Source: Saprospiraceae bacterium
GTDB taxonomy: Bacteria; Bacteroidota; Bacteroidia; Chitinophagales; Saprospiraceae
Assembly (NCBI GenBank): GCA_027488935.1
Contig: JAIYAP010000038.1
Span: 1 to 64,000 of the forward strand
Reading direction: 5' to 3'
Length of the DNA: 64,000 bases
Positions within the stretch are counted from its first letter, which is position 1; each line of letters begins with the position of its first letter. The notes below the pieces were generated by a model. It saw only the letters and a program-made list of their open reading frames with translations. It made no database searches and was not told the origin of the DNA. Position numbers and translations under genes: made by a program. Positions 58,387 through 58,583 of this stretch are shown piece after piece.

Positions 58387-58431
58387 AAAAACAAAAAGGC
58401 CCTTCGGAACGGATGTCCGAAAGGCCTTTTT
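58387..58431 (-). terminator. Attenuator terminator in the metY leader
   Basis: On the minus strand AAAAAGGCCTTTCGGA pairs with TCCGAAGGGCCTTTTT (16 bp with one G-U) around a 7-nt loop, followed by TTTTTGTTTTT. It lies between the leader peptide and metY, 24 bp before the metY ATG, so it must be conditionally read through for metY-metX expression. Confidence 0.85.
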
Positions 58432-58549
58432 ATGGTGCGACTATTTTTTATCTAAAATATGCCAACATCATGCAAATATCCTTGCGGTCGTCCAGAAACC
58501 GAACAACAACAACAACACATACAAGCAATGGCTACTGCATTACCGAAGG
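58417..58549 (-). promoter_or_regulatory. Mutually exclusive attenuator segments 1, 2 and 3
   Basis: Segment 1 is CCTTCGG (58549-58543), segment 2 CCGCAAGG (58487-58480), segment 3 CCTTTCGG (58424-58417); segment 4, CCGAAGG, is at 58407-58401. Segments 1 and 3 are near-identical, as are 2 and 4, so 1:2, 2:3 and 3:4 helices compete. The Cys codons (58523-58503) lie between segments 1 and 2. Confidence 0.55.
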
Positions 58550-58583
58550 TACAAGGGTTGATATTTGCGAAATTAATTTTCAT
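58452..58583 (-). CDS. Cysteine-rich leader peptide of the metY-metX operon
   Basis: 43 codons, ATG at 58583 to TAG at 58452. Codons 21-27 read C-M-C-C-C-C-C, all cysteines as TGT, and another Cys is codon 11. The product otherwise has no domain or signal peptide. The stop is 20 nt before the terminator stem. Because the downstream genes make homocysteine/cysteine and O-acetylhomoserine, the likely role is regulatory: ribosome stalling at Cys (and Met) codons when charged tRNA is scarce would favour the antiterminator. The peptide itself is probably not functional. I see no clear promoter box directly upstream. Confidence 0.75.
   Translation of the reverse strand: MKINFANINPCTFGNAVAIACMCCCCCSVSGRPQGYLHDVGIF

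Follow-up and report, generated by a model that had tools for sequence, protein, structure and literature searches.

The metY-metX genes of the window, meaning the whole 64,000-nt stretch of Saprospiraceae DNA analysed here, are very probably controlled by ribosome-mediated transcription attenuation that responds to the charging of Cys-tRNA and probably also of Met-tRNA. As read from the sequence, the leader comprises a short open reading frame (ORF) with a run of cysteine codons and an intrinsic terminator, is conserved in the closest relatives and appears to belong to a regulon. We lean, with only a slight preference, towards a broader picture in which sulfur amino-acid synthesis in Bacteroidota is run by a regulon of codon-reading leaders, those with Cys codons only preceding cysteine and sulfate-assimilation genes and those with Met and Cys codons preceding metY. 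Some of its leaders would begin at the transcription start or close to it, and others would occur in pairs before cysM. In many lineages a leader and a SAM-I riboswitch, whichever comes first, would act one after the other as a two-input gate for SAM and Cys-tRNA. A literature search turned up little about the regulation of sulfur amino-acid synthesis in Bacteroidota, and these leaders offer a concrete, testable regulon that can be read from sequence. They are short ORFs, which annotation may overlook.

The metY leader of the window

The features of the locus are as follows.

58618..58621, minus strand: -33-like element TTTG of a Bacteroidota-type promoter (TTTG conserved in the window, L009, L010 and L011)
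58589..58596, minus strand: -7-like element CTTCTTTG (CT here; all four closest loci share TCTTTGC)
58452..58583, minus strand: leader peptide ORF, 43 codons (read from the sequence; conserved in L009-L011)
58503..58523, minus strand: putative regulatory codons 21-27, C-M-C-C-C-C-C (Cys/Met cluster in 99/163 metY upstream regions, window included)
58480..58493, minus strand: segment 2 (GGACGACCGCAAGG), 5' side of the predicted antiterminator (fold past the Cys run, -19.1 kcal/mol, z -0.73; set-wide test)
58416..58431, minus strand: segment 3, terminator 5' arm (AAAAAGGCCTTTCGGA; pattern scan, folding, covariation)
58393..58408, minus strand: segment 4, terminator 3' arm (4/16 pairs with a double compensatory change)
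58387..58391, minus strand: terminator T tract (sequence, pattern scan)
57043..58362, minus strand: metY, O-acetylhomoserine/O-acetylserine sulfhydrylase (TIGR01326, 670 bits, cut-off 495)
55884..56927, minus strand: metX-like homoserine O-acetyltransferase (best NCBIfam match TIGR01392 MetX at 313 bits, below the cut-off of 500; Pfam Abhydrolase_1)

An earlier, sequence-only reading had proposed a 43-codon minus-strand ORF with C-M-C5 at codons 21-27, which is confirmed at 58583-58452; its positions for the leader stop, 20 nt 5' of a 16-bp terminator, and for the terminator, 24 nt 5' of metY, are likewise correct. The encoded peptide is MKINFANINPCTFGNAVAIACMCCCCCSVSGRPQGYLHDVGIF, with C21, M22 and C23-C27, and the Cys tract is a pure TGT repeat. 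The metX-like gene lies downstream of metY and shares its orientation. Along the leader, the Cys run is followed by segment 2, the stop and the terminator, as in a classical attenuator. When cysteine suffices, the ribosome would pass the Cys codons and reach the stop, covering segment 2, so that the terminator helix 3:4 would form and metY would be off. With Cys-tRNA scarce, the ribosome would stall in the Cys run and leave segment 2 free to pair with segment 3, which would block the terminator and let RNA polymerase continue into metY. The model presumes that the leader is translated, that the ribosome stalls within it and that the outcome responds to cysteine.

Helix 3:4 is firm: its 16 pairs are formed in 64 of 64 cells across the window, L009, L010 and L011, with double changes in 4 pairs, and in these four loci the terminator sits 18-25 nt past the leader stop. 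These closest relatives retain the Cys run and the position of the stop as well as the covarying terminator, and none of the three has the terminator while having lost the Cys run, the combination that the sequence-only reading had named as speaking against it. With the recurrence of the design elsewhere in the genome, this conservation supports its interpretation of the leader as an attenuator. The nearest named relatives of the window are Bacteroidetes/Bacteroidota. A pattern scan for terminators is weak by itself, because it returned five terminator-like sites in 57800-59200 where shuffles expect 2.3, with that of the window ranked first. The entire 197-nt leader has a folding z of -4.51, and 0/200 shuffles were equally good. 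Over leader codons 1-17, the window and L009 differ by two synonymous and no non-synonymous changes; the window and L011 differ by six synonymous and four non-synonymous changes, a count that weighs against the attenuator.

How would the terminator be disarmed? The sequence-only reading had drawn four segments allowing competing helices 1:2, 2:3 and 3:4. All four are present (CCTTCGG, CCGCAAGG at 58487-58480, CCTTTCGG at 58424-58417 and CCGAAGG at 58407-58401) and 3:4 stands, but 1:2 as drawn is without clear support and 2:3 is weak in the window alone. Folding the stretch that follows the Cys run, up to but excluding the 3' arm, gives helix 2:3 as the minimum-energy structure, at -19.1 kcal/mol with a z of only -0.73; the duplex energy of this helix was matched by 113 of 200 shuffles and its expected-pair count by 3 of 100. 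For 1:2 the outcome is mixed, the duplex energy being matched by 12/200 shuffles and the expected pairs by 26/50. The Cys codons had been placed between segments 1 and 2 in that drawing; in the predicted whole-leader fold, the partner of segment 2 is the Cys-codon stretch itself and not CCTTCGG.

The antiterminator was also assessed across the 24 leaders whose terminator reaches dG <= -12, from a set of 29 (the window clade together with the cysM/peroxiredoxin/cysH set), by comparing the pairing of the stretch between Cys codons and terminator with the terminator 5' arm against shuffles. By duplex energy, no more than 10 of 200 shuffles did as well in 15 of the 24 leaders; 17/24 stood at or below 5 of 100 shuffles by fold energy, and 13/24 did so by expected pairs. 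In a separate test, the fifth leader of the same genome (listed below) gave -17.2 against -8.8 kcal/mol, with 0/200 shuffles as good. These comparisons argue for a predicted antiterminator competing for the terminator 5' arm in the leader set, and weakly so for the window alone. A protector helix 1:2 stood out from shuffles in few leaders of the set, with 4/24 at <=10 of 200 shuffles (duplex) and 6/24 at <=2 of 50 (pairs).

Promoters of Bacteroidota follow the consensus TTTG / TAnnTTTG. The -7-like element of the window lies 21 nt past TTTG and 5 nt 5' of the leader ATG. In the 29-leader set, TTTG occurs 2-8 nt 5' of the in-frame ATG in 12 leaders, versus 50 of the 784 ATGs that these loci contain (the leaders' own counted too), and TAnnTTTG stands 5' of the ATG in 7 leaders versus 9 of the 784. 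Among the 99 metY leaders described below, TTTG is found near the ATG in only 12 and TAnnTTTG in 2; the fifth leader of the same genome has TACCTTTG farther upstream. Because promoter-like TTTG or TAnnTTTG stands so close to the ATG, some leaders, that of the window included, may be leaderless or nearly so.

Leaders before other sulfur genes

In the genome of the window, TGYx4 has 115 matches, versus 56 for a backward control. Among the 100 of these 115 matches that were listed, 86 distinct TGY>=4 tracts were read. At least six of them have a terminator at dG <= -15 after the tract, and in five of these the tract lies in a short ORF that starts with ATG and carries a run of 4-7 Cys codons:

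Leader 1: the metY leader of the window (ATG ORF and terminator)
Leader 2: MIIFFQINICCCCCTLPAEAPATHLYV, before a peroxiredoxin gene beside cysM
Leader 3: MPYHFCSCCCCCCCSSCLAGSKRLLYVVLPKKNP, before cysM, then JAB-domain, ThiS-like and ThiF/rhodanese genes
Leader 4: MLKNKPNIISCCCCQIQVAEAEAQRVYIGIATF, before cysH-cysD-cysN, a tetrapyrrole methylase and a flavodoxin-domain gene
Leader 5: MHTIYSSSCCCCTKHPTEAAGPALPNV, before a second PAPS-reductase-like (cysH-like) gene and a tetrapyrrole methylase

The design thus recurs four more times in the genome, before sulfur genes or, once, before the peroxiredoxin gene beside cysM. The fifth leader is overlapped by a 302-codon open frame, and the start of the cysH-like gene was taken as 3' of the terminator. 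The sixth terminator-bearing tract, in L332, has no ATG; a tract in L121, outside long ORFs, has an ATG and no terminator.

Two of these loci may be described further. On contig 40 (L377, 702-1917) the second cysH-like gene, which matches PAPS reductase weakly (26.9 bits), and the tetrapyrrole methylase gene have a Cys leader of their own. On contig 70 (L330, 2095-5796) peroxiredoxin, cysM, JAB-domain, ThiS-like and MoeZ-like genes stand in series behind Cys leaders, a gene row that resembles the mycobacterial sulfur-carrier route to cysteine.

Leaders with a CCC run precede cysM at 13 of 27 places in 26 genomes, the genome of the window included. The cysM gene of a same-genus genome (L274) has no leader, and under a looser rule antisense Cys/Met ORFs appear at 3/27 cysM loci; both points weigh against the attenuator. 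At L275, L277, L282, L284, L287, L288, L289 and L290, two Cys leaders stand in tandem upstream of cysM, 77-125 nt apart; in five of these eight loci each of the pair has a terminator at dG <= -12. Upstream of cysD, at 30 loci that do not include the cysD of the window's genome, there were two matches, neither of them a Cys-run leader, and three antisense; this set is a weak control because the leader of that genome precedes cysH, upstream of cysD. A TGYx4-stop regulon search in 150 family genomes was dropped because most of the 50 loci inspected lay within or opposite longer ORFs, and it neither supports nor opposes the regulon.

Leaders before metY in relatives

Loci of metY came from three sources: 80 named loci kept out of 577 relatives, all 51 places apart from the window's own that a same-family search gave (52 of 150 genomes matched), and 38 loci out of a phylum-wide search that matched 173 of 296 genomes. 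Together with the window these gave 170 upstream regions, or 163 once near-duplicates were removed. A leader was scored as an ORF with at least five Cys+Met (at least two Cys) in 8 residues, ending no more than 450 nt from metY. Such an ORF occurs in 99 of the 163 regions and in 0/163 on the opposite strand, and dinucleotide shuffles gave a mean of 0.2 (maximum 1, n=10). A plain CCC rule found 103/163, with three antisense and a shuffle mean of 1.55 (maximum 4, n=20). Judged by these sequence counts, the pattern is more than chance. Leaders precede metY in 52/77 named regions, 31/49 of the same family, the window's own (1/1) and, by further family, 2/3 in f2 (same order), 6/7 in f3, 2/2 in f9, 2/2 in f47, 1/1 in f16 and 2/3 in f23. 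By the Cys/Met rule none was found in f8 (0/2), in f10 (0/2) or in thirteen further families (0/14; f5, f18, f19, f20, f24, f28, f29, f31, f34, f37, f39, f41 and f50), and 64 of the 163 regions are without a leader, which counts against the preferred explanation. Outside this 450-nt range, the 80 named loci (1.116 Mb, counting both strands) hold only 13 ORFs of the kind. Seven of them, on the metY strand, start 690-1119 nt upstream of metY at loci with no ORF in range (L015, L021, L034, L045, L067, L071 and L075), and six lie elsewhere.

A strong terminator (dG <= -15) accompanies 13 of the 99 metY leaders, versus 0.8 in shuffles; in L219 and L220 the terminator so counted is 3' of a riboswitch, and each locus has another after the leader. 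The output stage therefore varies, since most of the 99 are without a strong intrinsic terminator, a scarcity that also speaks against the preferred explanation. In 13 loci without a terminator at dG <= -15 (L019, L025-L027, L031, L036, L037, L042, L049-L051, L058 and L088) a conserved CAACA...CTGCC..GTGACAGG-type element lies between leader and metY. It has only four consensus pairs and no double changes or covariation across the 13 loci, and is possibly a different output stage.

Could a Cys-responsive leader work without transcription termination? Stalling might open the metY start region (translation attenuation) or block Rho, with the terminator incidental. The 86 of 99 metY leaders without a terminator at dG <= -15 are in keeping with this, as are the actinobacterial Cys leaders without conserved terminators, in the accessible part of PMC1262725, and the mycobacterial ones, which the accessible part of PMC13236596 terms translation attenuation. 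For the window this is nevertheless improbable: a strong, covarying terminator lies 18-25 nt past the stop in the window and L009-L011, and the other four leaders found in the genome also have one. It is very improbable that the terminator acts constitutively, or as a processing site, between two adjacent genes, with the TGT repeat there by chance in an untranslated ORF. The tract of the window is indeed a pure TGT repeat, and TGYx4 is common in the genome (115 matches against 56 for the backward control), but ATG, short ORF and terminator coincide at five of the 86 tracts read, all before sulfur genes or the peroxiredoxin gene beside cysM; the opposite strand yields 0/163, and relatives encode the run by mixed TGT and TGC and interrupt it with other residues.

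The codons themselves fit the attenuator that reads Cys and probably Met. In 102 CCC-run metY leaders, Met occupies 119 of the 612 positions within six residues before the run, versus 100 of 3668 further up; in 25 leaders of cysM, peroxiredoxin and cysH loci it is found once in 149 residues before the run. Met codons just before the Cys run in metY leaders, and not in cysM-type leaders, appear to be a new feature. They may act as sensors; an alternative reading is that they are internal starts. Before the run Met prefers odd positions (-1, 51; -3, 25; -5, 14 of 102 metY leaders) over even ones (-2, 12; -4, 6; -6, 11 of 102), in patterns such as RMRMCCC and MCMCCCC. That the tract is a leucine leader, read in the TTG/CTG frame, is scarcely credible: upstream ORFs with Leu runs do occur in 97/163 regions, but the stop falls 0-2 codons past the run in the Cys frame in 73/102 leaders and in the Leu frame in 29/102, the downstream genes are sulfur genes, the Met codons before the run fall in the Cys frame, and of the six Leu codons only YTG would be used, whereas the metY gene of the window has other Leu codons in 16/39.

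Known attenuators and SAM-I riboswitches

Classical trp and his attenuators have a short ORF rich in codons for the pathway product and an antiterminator opposed to an intrinsic terminator, before biosynthesis genes. The window leader shares with them the short ORF of pathway codons and the intrinsic terminator between leader and gene. It differs in that it would sense Cys and probably Met, in an ORF that is perhaps near-leaderless, in its place in Bacteroidota and in a helix 1:2 without clear support. Polycysteine leaderless short ORFs of mycobacteria have reportedly been described by Canestrari in 2020. In the accessible accounts, mycobacterial and actinobacterial polycysteine leaders are similar to that of the window in having Cys runs near the stop, before sulfur operons; the mycobacterial ones are reportedly leaderless, and the window leader may be nearly so. 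The actinobacterial ones, before sulfur operons, have no conserved terminator in the accessible part of PMC1262725 (Seliverstov 2005), whereas the window leader has a strong intrinsic terminator and a predicted antiterminator. Poly-Cys leaders thus occur in a phylum distant from mycobacteria.

A closer parallel in layout is uORFC-8-2, which precedes cysS in Rhodobacterales; according to the accessible part of its description, two tandem Cys codons, usually at 14-15, are followed by an intrinsic terminator, and ribosome-mediated attenuation was proposed (PMC8632094). On that account it has a Cys-codon uORF and then an intrinsic terminator, as in the window, but differs in its two Cys codons, its gene (cysS) and its host group (alphaproteobacteria), the five leaders in the window's genome having runs of 4-7 Cys codons and preceding genes for sulfur assimilation and methionine. 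The window leader falls outside the uORFC-8-2 definition, as it precedes metY, has Cys codons at 21 and 23-27 and has Bacteroidota relatives. The sequence-only reading had known of no classical terminator-type Cys attenuator before MetY in Bacteroidota; none was found in the open-access literature, where the search found no Cys leader of Bacteroidota, but the terminator-type Cys attenuator itself had already been described, as far as the accessible text of PMC8632094 goes, in uORFC-8-2.

Within the phylum, the accessible part of PMC9723704 reports leader-peptide attenuation before amino-acid operons of Flavobacterium psychrophilum, where Cys is not named, and these attenuators may include a metY case. 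Leader-like sORFs in Bacteroides appear in the accessible part of PMC7366714, and the accessible part of PMC2965389 contains nothing on Bacteroidota. The regulon, the codon logic, the pairing with a riboswitch in either order and the tandem cysM leaders seem to be the new parts.

The SAM-I riboswitch (RF00162) shares with the Cys leader the position before metY and differs in its sensor. It is absent from the window (0 Rfam matches at E <= 1 in 52000-62000). In an Rfam scan of 80 metY loci, 35 have a SAM riboswitch and a leader, 20 a SAM riboswitch only, 15 a leader only and 10 neither; a SAM riboswitch thus precedes metY in 55/80 relatives scanned, one match being SAM-I-IV. In one locus counted as SAM only (L013), a long ORF terminates with a Cys run. 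The riboswitch lies 5' of the Cys cluster in 31 of the 35 dual loci and the order is reversed in three, with L186 in neither count. In 23 of the 31 riboswitch-first loci the leader ORF starts 0-18 nt past the end of the aptamer match; with aptamer and leader mostly so few bases apart, SAM might determine whether the leader is read. Among those tested, a terminator at dG <= -15 is present in 10/14 leader-only loci (window included) versus 0/29 riboswitch-first loci, which suggests that the sensor is kept while the output stage varies. Such natural pairs of riboswitch and leader peptide, in both orders, are material for how two RNA sensors combine. In L215, L219 and L220 a Cys/Met leader, then a hairpin and T tract (-14.2 to -17.6 kcal/mol), stand 5' of the SAM-I riboswitch.
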